Shown one piece after another: positions 107-17,203 of a stretch of 64,000 bases of DNA. The position numbers and the translations under genes were made by a program. The DNA is taken from positions 1,177,033-1,241,032 of the forward strand of contig LLKB01000005.1 of the NCBI GenBank assembly GCA_001414325.1, given 5' to 3'. How positions within the stretch are numbered: position 1 is the stretch's first letter; each line of letters begins with the position of its first letter. Source of the DNA: Butyribacter intestini (lineage in GTDB: Bacteria > Bacillota > Clostridia > Lachnospirales > Lachnospiraceae). The notes below the pieces were generated by a model. That model saw nothing but the letters and a program-made list of their open reading frames with translations, was not told where the DNA came from and did not search any database.

Positions 107-1267
107 TTATATGCAGTTACGCAAAAAATCTAATCCACCATCTATATATCCTAAATATCCGTATTCATACCTTACTTTCGGAATCTCTGATATTTCTCTG
201 TTTGCAACAAATCTTACGCTCGTTTCTACATCCGCAGAATATACATCTATATCAAACTCTGATATTTCCTTATCTGTTTTGTTTCCTAGTGATATTGTCA
301 CACTTTGAGGATTGCATCCTATAATCCCTATTTTCTGAATATTGGTACAATTACTTAAATCCAATTCATTTATTCTTGACCAATTCATATAAAATTCTTT
401 TAAACAATATGTTTTAGGCATTTTCAATTCGTCAAGTGGTGTATGAGAAATATTAACTGTCTTAATTTTTCTGTTATTTGATAAATCTATCTGCTTTATA
501 TTAAAGACCGAATTTATATACACTCCTTCTAAATTTTGACATCCTGAAAAATCTATTCTGTTTAAATATGGATAATTTCCTTCTTCTGCAGACTCTCCAT
601 ATCCAACATCTAAAAAGAAATATTTCAATGTCGGATTATTTCCTAAGTCAATGCTTTTCAAATTATTTCCGGTAACTGAACCAAAATACTGTATTTTTTT
701 AAACCGTGGTAAATTAATTTCTGTAAGTATTTCTTTAGCCTCAAGTGACATTCCTCTGATATATCCATAATCATCCCATTCTATCCATTTGTCATGCAGA
801 AAATCATCTCCTTCTGCATACCAATCATTTCCCATCTCCTTTGAACTCTTTATAAAACACTCCTTATAAAATTTCGTGAGCTGTTTTATTTCTGATTTTT
901 TAGGTGCCTGTTTCTTTACTGTTATATTATAAATAGTTTTTTTCTTCCCCTGTTTTGCCTGTAGCTTTACACTTCCAGATTTTTGTGCTTTTATTTTTAT
1001 TTCTCCATTGTCTTTTTTTATTACTGATATGTTCTGCTGTCCACTTACAATACTCCATACTACCTTTTTCTCACTTTTTGGTGCTTTTATCGTCTTTTTC
1101 TGTGCAACCGTTACTTTTACTTTTTTTACATTCTTCTTGTCCTTAGCCTGTTTTGTTTTTGATGCTACTGCAGTCACACTTCTCATTCCAACATCAACGA
1201 AAATACCTGTTGAAACTAAAGAAACACTCAATGATAGTGCAAGTAATTTTTTTAATCTCATGCTCAT
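107..1267 (-). CDS. Secreted leucine-rich-repeat surface protein
   Basis: A 386-residue secreted protein. It has an N-terminal signal peptide (basic MRLKKLL followed by a hydrophobic stretch). Next comes a Lys-rich segment of about 80 residues that resembles a bacterial Ig-like/BIG2 stalk (short beta-strand pattern ending in NITVKK). From about residue 190 there are irregular leucine-rich repeats with the pattern LxxIDLxNNxxLK, as in the secreted LRR proteins of gut Clostridia. I chose the ATG at 1267 because GGAGG lies 7 bases before it; the ATG at 1273 touches the Shine-Dalgarno. It lies downstream of the subtilase on the same strand, separated by a terminator-like hairpin. No anchor motif (LPxTG) is visible. 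The function is unknown; adhesion or glycan binding is only a guess from fold type. Confidence 0.75.
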   Translation of the reverse strand: MSMRLKKLLALSLSVSLVSTGIFVDVGMRSVTAVASKTKQAKDKKNVKKVKVTVAQKKTIKAPKSEKKVVWSIVSGQQNISVIKKDNGEIKIKAQKSGSVKLQAKQGKKKTIYNITVKKQAPKKSEIKQLTKFYKECFIKSSKEMGNDWYAEGDDFLHDKWIEWDDYGYIRGMSLEAKEILTEINLPRFKKIQYFGSVTGNNLKSIDLGNNPTLKYFFLDVGYGESAEEGNYPYLNRIDFSGCQNLEGVYINSVFNIKQIDLSNNRKIKTVNISHTPLDELKMPKTYCLKEFYMNWSRINELDLSNCTNIQKIGIIGCNPQSVTISLGNKTDKEISEFDIDVYSADVETSVRFVANREISEIPKVRYEYGYLGYIDGGLDFLRNCI

Positions 1268-1294
1268 AATCATTCCTCCCTCCCATGTAAAAAC

Positions 1295-1339
1295 ATCTGC
1301 CTTATATTTTTATAATTATTCTTATAATATAAGACAGAT
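1295..1339 (-). terminator. Terminator-like hairpin after the subtilase gene
   Basis: On the minus strand ATCTGTCTTATATT pairs imperfectly with AATATAAGGCAGAT and is followed by GTTTTT. It sits between the subtilase stop codon and the start of the LRR protein gene, so it probably ends the peptide-protease transcript. Confidence 0.5.
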
Positions 1340-1382
1340 ATTTTTGGATTTTGTTGCAGTTTTTTATTCAATAACTATTATA

Positions 1383-3587
1383 TTATTCTTTTATTCCTGT
1401 TGATAATTGATCTATACTTGCCATATTGGATTTAAAATAACTTGGACTAACTCTGTTCATATATTCAGCATATCCAATTAATGTAAATGCTCCTTGATAT
1501 GGCTTATACACAGAACTGAAATTAAAATCAGAAGCCGACAACTCTCTTTCATTTTGATATTTTTTCAATATACTTTTTGCAACCTTTACAGCTCCGTCTA
1601 CTCTATTAGGATAATACGAAGCATCATCCGCAAGTTTCTTTCCTGTTGAAGTATTTTTATCATGTTTAATTAATGCTCCATCACTGCTACATGATGAATG
1701 AGAAAATGTATCCATCGCATTATGCAATGCCAGTCCTAAAATTACTATTGAGCGATTTTTATTATTATTAGATACTGTCGTATTTGTATTGCTCTGCTTT
1801 ACACAAAAATTAAATATTTTATCCCAGCTAACTGTTTTTTTGTTTATTAAAACACCTGTTTCTTCTTTTTCTTTCTCGCCATTTTCTTTTACATTTATTT
1901 TTACAGGTCCTCCGCTCGGACGCATTGTTTTTACAATTCCATTTTTTGAATCTGCATTTAATCTATCCATAATTACTTCATAATCAGAATCGTAAATTCC
2001 TGCAACTTTATCTGGTCTGGTATATATTCCATTTTTATAATTCATAGCCAATTTATATATCTGCATAGTATTAGCAATATAATTTGACCTAATCTTTGTG
2101 CTATGTTTATGTAAAAGTTTTCTACTCGAATCAAATGTATGATGCTGTCCATATCCATAACCATGAAAAGTCCAATTATATGTCATTCTAGAAATTCCGG
2201 CATCATCTCCTAATGTATCTGTAGTATTTGATTTATCCTCATCATGGTCTGAATATATCAATGCTCCATACAACAATTTTAATTCTACTCCTGTCAATCC
2301 ACTCGAAGATGAAACACTTGTATGTACAGCATCTCCCCATAATGCTTCAGCATTATCAGTTTCGCTAAAATTTTCTACTTTCTCAGGATTTTTCTCTATA
2401 ATATCACTATTATCAATCCCTTCCTGATAATTTTTTGAAAACTCATCATACTTATTTTGGGCATATTGTAAGTCTATTAATCCACTTCCATCCTCTAGTT
2501 TTTTTGATGTTTCTTTTAATAAATCTCTTATAAATTCCTTTGATTTACTTTTATCTTTTGCCCATAATACTGCCGCTACTCCCGTAACATGAGGAGCCGC
2601 TACACTTGTTCCGCTCACCTGCAGCGTACCATCTAAAAAACAGGCCGATTTAACAGCTTCACCCGGTGCAGCCAATTCTACTCTCTCGTCATCGGCACTA
2701 TTCTTTGATATATTTCCATCCTTTGATACCGAACCAACTGCTATCACTTCATCATAAGCTGCCGGATATTGAATTTGTTTATCATTTCCTGCTGCCGCTA
2801 TTATTAACACACCTTTTGAGTCTGCATATTTTATTGCCTGTTCAAGTATATCTGCATTGGTTTTTGTTCCTAAACTTAAATTGATTATATTAACACCCTT
2901 ATCAACTGCCCAATAAATTCCATCAACTATTCTGCTTAAAGGTGCTTTATTCTCGCAGTCTAAGGCTTTAACTGAATATAATTCAACATTATCAGGTGCT
3001 ATTCCTGAAATTCCATCTTTATCTTTTGAATTTGCTGCAATAATCGCCGCCACTGCGGTTCCATGCCCGGTTCTGTCCTCATATATAATATTTATATCTT
3101 CTTCACCCGGTACAAGATTATATCTCTCTGCAACCTTTATACCATTAGTATAATCTACACCTGAATCAATTATTGCTACTTTAATCTTATCTTTGCTTTT
3201 TTCAGAATTTTCATCTGCATTTATCATCTGCATATTCCACTCTGATACATCCGTAATATTATCTTCTGTTTCTCCTAATCCCTCCATTTCACAATCAGGT
3301 TCTATCGTTATCCCCTGCTTTTTTTCCAATTGTTGAGCTTCCTTTTCAGACAGTTCTAAAACAGTTGTATTATGTTCTTCTAAGCTCTCTGCTTTTTCAG
3401 CTTCGTCCGATATACAGTCACCATATTTAGTCTGTATATCCTTAAACAATTCACCATTTTTTGTAGAAACAATATATTGTTCACTAGCTTCTGTCTCATC
3501 AGCATCCACATTTTCAAAATTCATATTAAATGATGTTATAACCATAGAAAAAATAATTCCTATTGTTAAAAGTGCTTTCTTTTTCAT
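1383..3587 (-). CDS. Secreted subtilisin-like serine protease (S8) with long C-terminal extension
   Basis: A 734-residue pre-pro-protease. Signal peptide residues 1-28; propeptide-like region (I9 style) about 30-125; S8 catalytic domain about 130-385. Catalytic residues are Asp141 (DSGVD), His175 (GHGTAVA) and Ser328 (GTSVAAPH), with the oxyanion Asn268 in AAGND, so it looks active. The remaining ~350 residues are not a known protease accessory domain to me. They are rich in His/Tyr and contain ALHNAMDTFSHSS, an HxxxDxxxH pattern recalling zinc phospholipase C-like folds (weak). Start: the ATG at 3587 has AGGAG upstream; longer in-frame readings run into the peptide gene. It lies 22 bp downstream of the AgrD-like gene, so the two are probably one transcript. 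It could be a quorum-controlled exoprotease or the peptide's processing enzyme; the sequence does not decide. Confidence 0.85.
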   Translation of the reverse strand: MKKKALLTIGIIFSMVITSFNMNFENVDADETEASEQYIVSTKNGELFKDIQTKYGDCISDEAEKAESLEEHNTTVLELSEKEAQQLEKKQGITIEPDCEMEGLGETEDNITDVSEWNMQMINADENSEKSKDKIKVAIIDSGVDYTNGIKVAERYNLVPGEEDINIIYEDRTGHGTAVAAIIAANSKDKDGISGIAPDNVELYSVKALDCENKAPLSRIVDGIYWAVDKGVNIINLSLGTKTNADILEQAIKYADSKGVLIIAAAGNDKQIQYPAAYDEVIAVGSVSKDGNISKNSADDERVELAAPGEAVKSACFLDGTLQVSGTSVAAPHVTGVAAVLWAKDKSKSKEFIRDLLKETSKKLEDGSGLIDLQYAQNKYDEFSKNYQEGIDNSDIIEKNPEKVENFSETDNAEALWGDAVHTSVSSSSGLTGVELKLLYGALIYSDHDEDKSNTTDTLGDDAGISRMTYNWTFHGYGYGQHHTFDSSRKLLHKHSTKIRSNYIANTMQIYKLAMNYKNGIYTRPDKVAGIYDSDYEVIMDRLNADSKNGIVKTMRPSGGPVKINVKENGEKEKEETGVLINKKTVSWDKIFNFCVKQSNTNTTVSNNNKNRSIVILGLALHNAMDTFSHSSCSSDGALIKHDKNTSTGKKLADDASYYPNRVDGAVKVAKSILKKYQNERELSASDFNFSSVYKPYQGAFTLIGYAEYMNRVSPSYFKSNMASIDQLSTGIKE

Positions 3588-3609
3588 ACGCACTTTCTCC
3601 TTTTTTCTT

Positions 3610-3762
3610 TTACAATCCCTTATGCTTACTAATGAAATCATCAAGTCCCTCAGGTTTCTCCGGCTCATAAAAAAGTATTCTGCAAGCCCTGCCTGCAATC
3701 GGTGCAATAAGCACTGCAAATGCACATAAAACATTTGCTGCCTTATAAGTAAATTTCTTCAC
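3610..3762 (-). CDS. AgrD-like cyclic lactone autoinducer peptide precursor
   Basis: A 50-residue peptide with a GTG start preceded by GGGAGG (spacing about 8). The N-terminal 26 residues are a basic, then hydrophobic amphipathic leader (MKKFTYKAANVLCAFAVLIA). Cys27 begins CRILF, the size of a five-residue thiolactone ring. The tail YEPEKPEGLDDF matches the acidic, Pro-containing C-terminal recognition region of AgrD-type precursors (compare the S. aureus tail with EVxVPKEL). Such peptides are cut by AgrB, cyclised, and sensed by AgrC. Here the sensor kinase and regulator genes are divergent, 350 bp away, but no AgrB is in the window. The gene is too short for standard ORF calling. The identification rests on composition, layout and neighbours; I am fairly sure, though the exact ring is inferred. 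Confidence 0.8.
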   Translation of the reverse strand: MKKFTYKAANVLCAFAVLIAPIAGRACRILFYEPEKPEGLDDFISKHKGL

Positions 3763-3835
3763 ATTCTTCACCTCCCATTTTACTATAGTCCAAAAAAAAT
3801 ATTAACTCCCACATTGTCCTATTTATATTTCATAT

Positions 3836-3903
3836 ATCATACCACACTTTCATCTAATATCTGTTTTTTTCAGACGAATGGTCAAATTTTATCGACTTTC
3901 GGT
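3836..3903 (-). promoter_or_regulatory. LytTR operator and promoter of the AgrD-like/protease operon
   Basis: Minus-strand repeats ACCGAAAGT (3895-3903) and ACCATTCGT (3874-3882) are separated by exactly 12 bp, the layout bound by LytTR-family regulators. A -10 box TATGAT lies at 3836-3841, 32 bp past the second repeat. There is no good -35, as expected of an activator-dependent promoter. The likely regulator is the divergent AgrA-like protein. Confidence 0.65.
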
Positions 3904-3926
3904 TATAGTTTTCTTTTCATAATAAC

Positions 3927-3994
3927 ACCACTTATCCACTATTTTTAACCATTCGTCAAAATTTGTAGCTTATAGGTATATTATCTGATATAAT
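3927..3994 (+). promoter_or_regulatory. LytTR operator and promoter of the AgrA/AgrC-like operon
   Basis: Repeats ACCACTTAT (3927-3935) and ACCATTCGT (3948-3956) have a 12-bp spacer. TATAAT lies at 3989-3994, 32 bp past the second repeat, the same distance as on the opposite strand. A poor -35 (TTGTAG, 3963-3968) sits at a long 20-bp spacing, which resembles agr-type promoters. This suggests autoactivation of the regulator-kinase operon. Confidence 0.65.
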
Positions 3995-4112
3995 AACTCC
4001 AAAATCCTATATCATAAATTTGTGCATTTATTTTGCATACAATAGAATTTTGCATAAACTCTTTATATTACTGCTTATGCGTTCATTATTTTATCCACTT
4101 GGAGGATTTCAC

Positions 4113-4847
4113 ATGATACTTAATGTTGCTATTTGCGATGATGAAGAAAACGATATTGACATAATATCAGATTACCTTTTTAAATATCAAATGATACATG
4201 ATGTTGATTTTAATATCAGCCGCTTTCAATCCGGTCAAAACCTTTTAAATACATACTCAAAGCATGGCGTGTTTCAGCTTTTATTTATTGATGTAGAAAT
4301 GCCTGAATTGTCCGGTCTTGATGTTGCTAAACGAATAAGAAAACTTCCTGACCGTGATGTAAAGATTGTTTTTGTGAGCAATTATCCGGAATATATGCAA
4401 AACAGTTTTGATGTTCAGGCTTTTCAATACCTGTCAAAACCATTATCATATGAAAAATTCAACATGGTTATGAACAATATAATTGAAGATTTTAATTTGA
4501 CACATACAGTTCAATTTATTATAAAAACTGATTTATCAGAAGAAGTCATATATTCGCACAAAATAATTTACATACATACGATTGATGCACATTTAAAAAG
4601 ACTCGAAATAGTGTTAGAGGATCATTCTATAGAAACTATAGGCACTTTATCTGAGTGGGAAATATCTTTAAAAGATTATAATTTTATATTGTCCCACAGG
4701 GGGTACCTTGTCAACACTTCACAGATACATTATTTTGAAGATAAAAAACTTATTATGAATAATGGTGATGCAATTCCCGTAAGCAGGCGAAAAGAAAAAG
4801 AAATCCGAACTCTTTTTGCCCATATATGTATAAGCGGAGGTTTATAA
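4113..4847 (+). CDS. AgrA-like LytTR response regulator
   Basis: A 244-residue response regulator. The receiver domain (1-125) has the acidic pocket CDDEE near the N-terminus, the phospho-acceptor Asp60 (LFIDVEMPE) and a conserved Lys in LSKPL. A LytTR DNA-binding domain (about 140-240) follows, with the typical LSHRGYLVN segment. I chose the ATG at 4113, which follows GGAGGATTTCAC; the upstream in-frame start has no ribosome site. It is translationally coupled to the kinase gene (TAATG overlap). Two LytTR-type repeat pairs lie in the promoter region it shares with the peptide gene, so it probably activates both directions after phosphorylation by the kinase. Confidence 0.9.
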   Translation: MILNVAICDDEENDIDIISDYLFKYQMIHDVDFNISRFQSGQNLLNTYSKHGVFQLLFIDVEMPELSGLDVAKRIRKLPDRDVKIVFVSNYPEYMQNSFDVQAFQYLSKPLSYEKFNMVMNNIIEDFNLTHTVQFIIKTDLSEEVIYSHKIIYIHTIDAHLKRLEIVLEDHSIETIGTLSEWEISLKDYNFILSHRGYLVNTSQIHYFEDKKLIMNNGDAIPVSRRKEKEIRTLFAHICISGGL

Positions 4848-6148
4848 TGATTTACACTTTAACATCTGATATTTTTGATATTTTTACTATGAACATATTT
4901 TTTAATACTATTTTTCAAAAGCGTAATAAAAATATTCCTTATCCTATATTTATATCATTCTTTGTACTATATGAATTTATAGGATTTATCACCAACAGTT
5001 ATTTTAATCTGTCAGGCAGTAAACATTTGTATATTGTCTCTTTAGTAAGTATATTAACAATATTTTTACTGACATTTTTATATAATGCAAACCTTAAACT
5101 GCGTTTACTTAGTGCCATATCTTATCATGTTCTGGGCGGCTTATCAGAAGTTGTGATATATATTATTATATCCTACTTTCCAAAGGAAGACAGGGCTAAA
5201 ATACTCTCCCAAAACGGTATCTGCCTTGCTATATCACAAATTTTATTTTTTGTGTTTATAATGTTTGCCGTTCTTTTTGTAAAAAGAAAAAAGAGTGAAT
5301 TACTTACATTACAATACTCAATACTTATTTTGTTTACACCGGTTTTAACTAATATACTTATTTTAAGTATCTCTAATGCACCAAAAAATAATATTTTTCA
5401 TAAAACAATGAATACACTTGCAATAATAGGACTTCTTGCTGCAAATATAGTCAACTACTTTTTACTTGACAGCCTTTTAAAAGTAAAAGAATTGGAAATC
5501 ACCAAAAAACAGTTAAATGATAAACTTGAATATCAGACAAAGAAATATCTTCTTTTATCAACAACTTATAAAAATTCACGCAAGATTATCCACGATGTTA
5601 AAAAGCATTATTTTTTCATCAGGGAATGTCTGCACAAACAACACTACAGTGAAATTGATGATTATATTAATACATCTATCGGAGATATGGAGCAGACTTT
5701 CAACCGCATCAATACCGGAAATCTTGTTATTGACTCTTTTGTAAGTAACTATATGATGCTTGCGGAACATAATAATATCGTATTTAAAACAAATATTAAA
5801 GTTGACCTTGACAATATACAGATATCCGATTATGATTTCAGCATTATTCTCGGAAATCTTTTGGATAATTGCTATAATGCGTGTGAAAAAATAATGCCAC
5901 CAAGAAAAAGAGAGATTGATGTTGATATTTTCACAACAGAGCGTGAACTTGTAATTCATTTATACAATACATTTCTCCCTGACACGATAAAATACGATGA
6001 TGATGAACTTGTTCACGGTTATGGTACTGCTAATGTTTTTAATATCACACACACTAACCGTGGTAATTATAATAATTTTATCAAAGAAAATTTTTATCAT
6101 GCCGTTGTTACTATTCCATGTAATATTGATAAATATAAGAAAATATAA
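4847..6148 (+). CDS. AgrC-like sensor histidine kinase
   Basis: A 433-residue membrane kinase. The first ~205 residues form about six transmembrane helices, the peptide-sensing part in AgrC-type receptors. The phospho-acceptor is His249 in KIIHDVKKH. The GHKL ATPase domain follows, with the N box NLLDNCYNAC and a short G box YGTANV. The ATP lid is short, as in the HPK10 group of kinases. The start at 4847 overlaps the regulator stop codon by one base, and GGAGG lies upstream. It very likely senses a cyclic peptide; the adjacent AgrD-like product is the natural candidate. No AgrB gene follows it, unlike a standard agr locus. Confidence 0.9.
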   Translation: MIYTLTSDIFDIFTMNIFFNTIFQKRNKNIPYPIFISFFVLYEFIGFITNSYFNLSGSKHLYIVSLVSILTIFLLTFLYNANLKLRLLSAISYHVLGGLSEVVIYIIISYFPKEDRAKILSQNGICLAISQILFFVFIMFAVLFVKRKKSELLTLQYSILILFTPVLTNILILSISNAPKNNIFHKTMNTLAIIGLLAANIVNYFLLDSLLKVKELEITKKQLNDKLEYQTKKYLLLSTTYKNSRKIIHDVKKHYFFIRECLHKQHYSEIDDYINTSIGDMEQTFNRINTGNLVIDSFVSNYMMLAEHNNIVFKTNIKVDLDNIQISDYDFSIILGNLLDNCYNACEKIMPPRKREIDVDIFTTERELVIHLYNTFLPDTIKYDDDELVHGYGTANVFNITHTNRGNYNNFIKENFYHAVVTIPCNIDKYKKI

Positions 6149-16558: not shown

Positions 16559-17203
16559 TCATCCCTCAAGAATTCCGCAAATCTCCTCAAAACAGGTATC
16601 AAGTCCCTTTGAACCATCAATAACTTTTAAGATTCCCTGTTTCTTATAGTAATCAATAAGTGGAGCTGTCTGCTCATGATATACATCAAGTCTCTTTTTA
16701 ACAGTCTCCGGAGCGTCATCATCTCTTACAATAAGCTCGCCATCGCATTCATCACATACTCCCTCTGTTTTTGGAGGAATATTTACTACATGATATGTTG
16801 CTCCACAAGACTTACAGACTCTTCTTCCGCTCATTCTGTCTATAATAGCCTGATCCTCGAGGAAAATCTCAAGTGCATAATCGATGGCATCGTCATCCTT
16901 TGCAAGTGCCGCTGTAAGTGCTTCTGCCTGAGGAATTGTTCTTGGAAATCCGTCAAGAATATATCCATTTTTGCAATCATCCTGTTTGAGGCGGTCTACA
17001 ACAAGGTCACATACAAGTTCATCCGGTACAAGATTTCCTGCATCCATATACTCTTTAGCCTTCTTTCCAAGCTCCGTACCGTTTTTGATATTTTCTCTAA
17101 AAATATCTCCTGTAGAAATAGCCGGAATACCAAATTTTTCAGTAATCTTCTTTGCGTGTGTTCCTTTACCTGCTCCAGGTGCACCTAACATAATAATCTT
17201 CAT
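16559..17203 (-). CDS. adk: Adenylate kinase
   Basis: A 214-residue kinase interconverting ATP+AMP and 2 ADP. P-loop [14 protein letters not shown]-binding [12 protein letters not shown], and a LID with four Cys (CKSC...CDEC), the zinc-binding type common in Gram-positives. The ATG at 17203 follows GGAG by 8 bases. It normally follows secY; here it is ~5 kb away, beyond a methyltransferase, a metallopeptidase and a MITE. Confidence 0.97.

Follow-up and report, generated by a model that had tools for sequence, protein, structure and literature searches.

The locus described here raises the question of how a cyclic signal peptide may be matured where the gene for its processing enzyme is absent. 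A stretch of 64,000 nucleotides from Butyribacter intestini (contig LLKB01000005.1, positions 1,177,033–1,241,032; hereafter, the window) carries agrD, agrA, and agrC, and no agrB. The locus is of a known kind; it is unusual in having no agrB in place. The reading that we favour, with a probability of roughly 0.6, is that this divergent agr locus lost agrB in place, that AgrD is matured in trans by a paralogous AgrB, and that the resulting CRILF thiolactone would activate both strands through AgrC and AgrA.

The agrD gene and the locus layout

The agrD gene (3610–3762, minus strand) encodes a 50-aa precursor. Its GTG start is preceded at 8 nt by GGAGG, a good ribosome site; the orthologue in Eubacterium sp. 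MSJ-13, of the same genus, agrees in this spacing and in the codon at which it starts. The predicted thiolactone core, CRILF, is followed by an acidic, proline-containing tail, YEPEKPEGLDDF, with a PxxP pattern. The precursor scores 28 bits against NCBIfam TIGR04223 (curated cut-off 19), gives no match in a Pfam scan, and is 53% identical to the MSJ-13 orthologue over 49 codons, with 18, 10, and 25 nucleotide differences at codon positions 1, 2, and 3, respectively. The Cys-led core and the acidic tail (CRILF-YEPEKPEGL) align with 16 relatives, and a profile built from 17 AgrD-type peptides retrieves 26 genes at E<1e-8 from the loci searched, 15 of them among the 17. Given the same-genus orthologue and this profile result, agrD stands beyond chance, and, judged from its sequence, the 50-codon gene is a real AgrD gene. 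The sequence-only reading, which had called it AgrD-like and proposed a family search and a comparison with related genomes, is borne out by both: the family model is passed, and the small ORF is conserved.

The NCBIfam model is insensitive for AgrDs of this group. It is passed by four of ten further candidates scanned (L044, L043, L003, and L061), while the AgrDs of MSJ-13, of L072 and L121, and of two loci on contig C7 of the same B. intestini genome stay at 13.7–17.2 bits, and the AgrD on contig C1 of that genome gives no match.

The strand of agrD continues with a subtilase gene (1383–3587) and, as the third gene, a secreted LRR-like protein (107–1273, minus strand; LRR matches below the cut-off, paralogues in L007), which heads a tandem series continuing left of the window. 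A run of related secreted genes, several of them LRR-like and with two N runs within, spans L007:12586-18306 and reaches into the window from the left. Divergent from agrD and the subtilase are agrA (4113–4847, plus strand), a response regulator with a LytTR DNA-binding domain (Pfam Response_reg and LytTR), and agrC (4847–6148, plus strand), a membrane histidine kinase with a GHKL ATPase (Pfam); domains and strands thus agree with the AgrA-like and AgrC-like genes divergent from agrD that had been described from the sequence. AgrA and AgrC are, respectively, 65% and 57% identical to their MSJ-13 counterparts.

AgrB in the genome and at the locus

A whole-genome search yields six AgrB places, C7:7609, C7:45868, C6:200931, C1:806071, C5:1169976, and a shortened copy at C5:1393533, the only one without the GGxHx6C motif. 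All six lie outside the window, and neither this search nor comparison of the window finds AgrB within the window or between agrD and agrA. Hence both the absence of AgrB from the window and its suspected presence elsewhere, as the sequence-only reading had put it, are confirmed.

The probable fate of agrB is seen from comparison with MSJ-13, the closest relative found (the genomes compared are one per species). There, a 3.1-kb contig carries agrB ahead of agrA and agrC, between the operator and agrA. Window positions 3836–3890 (E 5e-5) and, weakly, 3927–3964 (E 0.026) match the operator side of the MSJ-13 agrB, and the window from 4101 onward, including agrA, matches the sequence on its agrA side; the interval between the flanking matches is 136 bp in the window (3965–4100) versus 646 bp in MSJ-13. 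Since MSJ-13 has agrB where the window has these 136 bp, agrB was probably lost from the window locus. A relic of agrB between the operator and agrA was considered and dropped: a tblastn search of the window with the MSJ-13 AgrB finds fragments no better than noise, the best of them (E 0.46) lying elsewhere. The divergent layout in MSJ-13 itself is only presumed, because its agrD sits at the start of another contig than agrB-agrA-agrC. In the more distant L044, agrD is divergent from agrB-agrA-agrC, and the AgrB groups with that of MSJ-13 (100/99).

Among the six AgrBs of the genome, those at C7:7609 and C7:45868 each stand beside an AgrD divergent from agrB-agrA-agrC, and both these AgrDs are of the window kind. 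Identity to the window AgrD is 46 and 40% for the two C7 AgrDs, versus 31 and 29% for those on C6 and C1. The tail of the window AgrD, EPEKPEGL, is letter-identical in the C7:45868 AgrD; that of the C6 AgrD differs in being basic. Judging AgrB–AgrD specificity by such similarity, the C7 AgrBs would be the best partners for the window AgrD.

A different solution would be an agrB in cis that was missed, either where the agrD operon ends, within the scaffold gap that adjoins the window on its left, or as the agrB at C5:1169976. A hidden gene is possible, because a 10-N gap (C5:1177023-1177032) directly adjoins the window on the left and because in the MAG RGIG6919 (L072) agrD, a subtilase, one more gene, and agrB follow each other on one strand, with agrA-agrC divergent. 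N runs are found at L007:16442-16538 and 17024-17033, and on contig C3 of genome G029 the pair of agrD and subtilase is followed by agrB about 4.8 kb on, on the same strand. In MSJ-13, the nearest relative, however, agrB is located between the operator and agrA instead. As for C5:1169976, it lies about 10 kb downstream of the window agrD on the same strand, and no agrD of its own was found near this agrB-agrA-agrC group (L007:7593-10522); however, it has its own agrA-agrC directly after it and groups with AgrBs of the C6/G15 type (98/82 and 94/83, a grouping in which the bootstrap is not settled), the type whose C6 AgrD has the basic tail. Judged by this grouping, it is less likely to be the cognate enzyme. 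Taken together, a missed agrB in cis is unlikely, and is the alternative that survives best.

Putative operators between agrD and agrA

Repeat and pattern searches reveal two tandem operator-like sites between the divergent genes: GACGAATGGT-N11-GACTTTCGGT (3873–3903, plus strand) facing agrA, and GACGAATGGT-N11-GATAAGTGGT (3927–3957, minus strand) facing agrD; the second halves match only partly. The agr control region of Staphylococcus aureus contains tandem LytTR sites, and from the spacing of LytTR sites we take the boxes at 3873–3903 and 3927–3957 to be AgrA sites. MSJ-13 has ACGAATGGT twice with 21-bp spacing, and in all three divergent loci of the B. intestini genome the repeat boxes form inverted pairs, each locus having its own word.

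In 29 intergenic regions, a few of them near-identical, lag 21 gives the top self-match of 24 lags (combined Z 11.1), lag 20 being next (4.4). In the window alone, lag 17 comes first (z 3.2) versus 2.3 for lag 21, and the best lag-21 stretch lies outside the named operators. The operator pattern occurs within the 64 kb only at the two named sites (50 single-base shuffles average 0.02), and a tighter version has two perfect matches genome-wide, both here, with three one-mismatch matches elsewhere and one match of the reversed control pattern; these counts speak for uniqueness only, because the patterns were composed after seeing both sites. With no other perfect match to the pattern in the genome, the two putative inverted tandem operators would tie AgrA to this locus.

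Related agr loci

A search of genome contigs with an AgrC alignment gave 128 relatives; 80 were retained, and 49 of these loci were classed, the other 31, from Paenibacillaceae, being set aside. In 31 of the 49, agrB is on the agrC strand at most 2.5 kb upstream of agrC. In 21 of these 31, agrD was found, always on the opposite strand (21/21); agrD divergent from agrB-agrA-agrC is thus common among the relatives. Four of the 49 loci have agrD without such an agrB, and 14 have neither agrB nor agrD found, some of them at contig ends; because contig ends truncate several loci, these absences are upper bounds. Three of the four belong to RGIG6919 and have no agrB between agrD and agrA, each with an AgrB-like frame at 2.8–6.9 kb from its agrC; L079, the fourth, has agrD and agrB together more than 4 kb upstream.

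The two C7 loci, L044, L047, L048, and others resemble the window locus in layout, AgrD type, and secreted cargo after agrD, and the 21-bp operator period is seen in many; the difference is that they have AgrB in cis and the window locus has none.

The 14 reduced loci bear on another reading, in which the signal is no longer made: AgrD would stay unmatured, AgrC and AgrA would respond to another AIP or be silent, and the locus would be heading towards the agrA-agrC-only state. Such receiver-type loci may be common; however, the AgrD, AgrA, and AgrC frames of the window are intact, with changes relative to MSJ-13 most frequent at third codon positions, and both putative operators are kept. We regard the loss of signalling as doubtful, and rank it next after a missed agrB in cis.

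Separately, agrA-agrC without agrB or agrD nearby is seen in L042, L046, L066, L068, L069, L071, L080, L082, L083, and L084, which are possible receiver-only loci; in L071 and L080 the upstream sequence is shorter than 4 kb, and some of the ten adjoin runs of secreted proteins. Upstream of agrA in L054 (389–616), a 75-aa frame looks, by eye, like AgrB without its middle, another possible AgrB loss.

The subtilase

The gene after agrD encodes a secreted S8 subtilase (PF00082, 7e-48) with a pro-domain and a C-terminal domain. It begins at 3587, 22 bp downstream of agrD, on the same strand; a scan of positions 1200–4200 gives no terminator-like site in this gap and three sites elsewhere, two inside agrD and one at 1729. 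The fold matches pro-subtilisin E, and the catalytic D141, H175, and S328 are invariant in all nine aligned proteins.

The C-terminal domain (window positions 1383–2354) has W417, H422, D447, and H622xxxD626xxxH630 invariant in nine of nine aligned proteins. A phospholipase-like C-terminus was considered here and amounts to a weak likeness: Zn_dep_PLPC (PF00882) matches at E<=1 in four of nine proteins (14.8 bits for the window protein, cut-off 26.8), the structure models are poor (pLDDT 63.7 for the whole subtilase, 60.5 for the C-terminal domain), Foldseek gives no fold match for the C-terminal domain model (best E 0.42), and a profile search of solved structures gives no relevant match. The invariant Trp-His-Asp and HxxxDxxxH suggest a metal-binding domain, which the subtilase may itself release by cutting ahead of the Trp; the invariant His and Asp residues may be zinc ligands.

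The neighbour following agrD was also scanned in 18 of the 25 other loci with agrD and in the two C7 loci, 20 proteins in all. Subtilases account for three of them (L043, cut by a contig end, L063, and L072); the rest are choline-binding, NlpC/P60, C92/CHAP, CBM2, or transglutaminase/HINT proteins, or have no match over the cut-off. At E<=1e-65, a family search with the window subtilase hits 11 of 397 genomes, B. intestini included, and agrD precedes the subtilase in one of the 13 other loci returned, L121 (G029:C3). The pairing of agrD with a subtilase is therefore seen in five loci from four genomes, window included, where G029 seems to be RGIG6919 again, its seven AgrB places being equal to those of the L072 genome. 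All four loci outside the window have AgrB in cis: it adjoins agrA in L043 and L063, and in L072 and G029:C3 it follows further downstream along the strand of agrD. No agrD is found beside any of eight same-genus relatives of the subtilase in the flanks seen (at most 1.5 kb; contig ends shorten some); the LRR neighbour, by eye, is kept in three of them (L017, L018, and L020).

In L063, the single frame directly after agrD (4303–6141, minus strand) starts as the C-terminal part of an AgrB, with GGYH...C, and runs on as a subtilase from its middle, with an end resembling Zn_dep_PLPC; either a deletion has fused the two genes, or the MAG is misassembled here.

The sequence-only reading had suggested that the subtilase may replace AgrB; peptide and exoprotease would then form a self-contained signalling module free of AgrB. 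We know of no secreted serine protease able to form a thiolactone with cleavage of the AgrD tail. The 22-bp spacing on one strand and the recurrence of a subtilase beside agrD in four other loci are in its favour, but AgrB in cis at all four, the absence of agrD from the flanks of the eight genus relatives, the varied cargo beside agrD, and the assignment of thiolactone formation with tail cleavage to AgrB in passages of an earlier report (PMC10885120) make this substitution very improbable, and we reject it. Because the other pairs of agrD and subtilase each carry AgrB in cis, the subtilase is best read as cargo, and looks like an induced one.

Probable maturation in trans and known systems

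Maturation of AgrD in trans by a paralogous AgrB is by analogy the most likely explanation, as proposed for System 2 of Clostridium autoethanogenum (PMC8748961). By the reasoning of that report, AgrD2 has to be processed by AgrB1, and the PxxP region is cited as a suggested AgrB recognition site. The two systems share an agrB-less locus with agrD and agrC (agrD2-agrC2 in System 2), AgrB elsewhere in the genome, and a PxxP tail. System 2, as described there, has no agrA and a single AgrB in the genome; at the window locus, by comparison, agrA is present, the layout is divergent with exoproteins as cargo, and several AgrBs are encoded elsewhere in the genome. C. difficile reportedly shows the reverse case, with agrBD but no agrCA (PMC10602386). 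The S. aureus agrBDCA system (P2/P3) likewise has AgrD, AgrC, and AgrA, and divergent promoters under AgrA (PMC8748961); there, however, AgrD is encoded with agrB and the divergent transcript is RNAIII, whereas in the window the divergent transcript carries agrD and exoproteins, and agrB is absent. Of the earlier suggestion that the arrangement is undescribed, one part may stand, as agrD adjoining a subtilase was not found in a search of open-licence literature; the other does not, an agrB-less agrD with proposed processing in trans being already in print (PMC8748961).

Under trans maturation, the ancestral locus would have had agrD and secreted cargo on one strand and agrB-agrA-agrC on the other, with agrB then lost in place. 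AgrD would be trimmed and cyclised by a paralogous AgrB to give a thiolactone with the predicted core CRILF; the best candidates are C7:7609 and C7:45868, where the AgrD beside each AgrB resembles that of the window in kind. Sensing of this thiolactone by AgrC would lead AgrA to occupy both inverted tandem operators in the agrD–agrA interval and to switch on the two strands, so that output of the signal, with its subtilase and LRR cargo, and of the receptor would rise.

If this reading is true, one bacterium would run several agr circuits with private receptors and operators and a common processing enzyme; with a shared AgrB, the loss of agrB at single loci therefore need not end signalling. 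More generally, the layout recurs in isolates and in MAGs whose record titles point to rumen and gut, with the signal gene at the head of an operon of secreted proteins; such operons are ready loci for testing the targets of peptide signalling in these bacteria.
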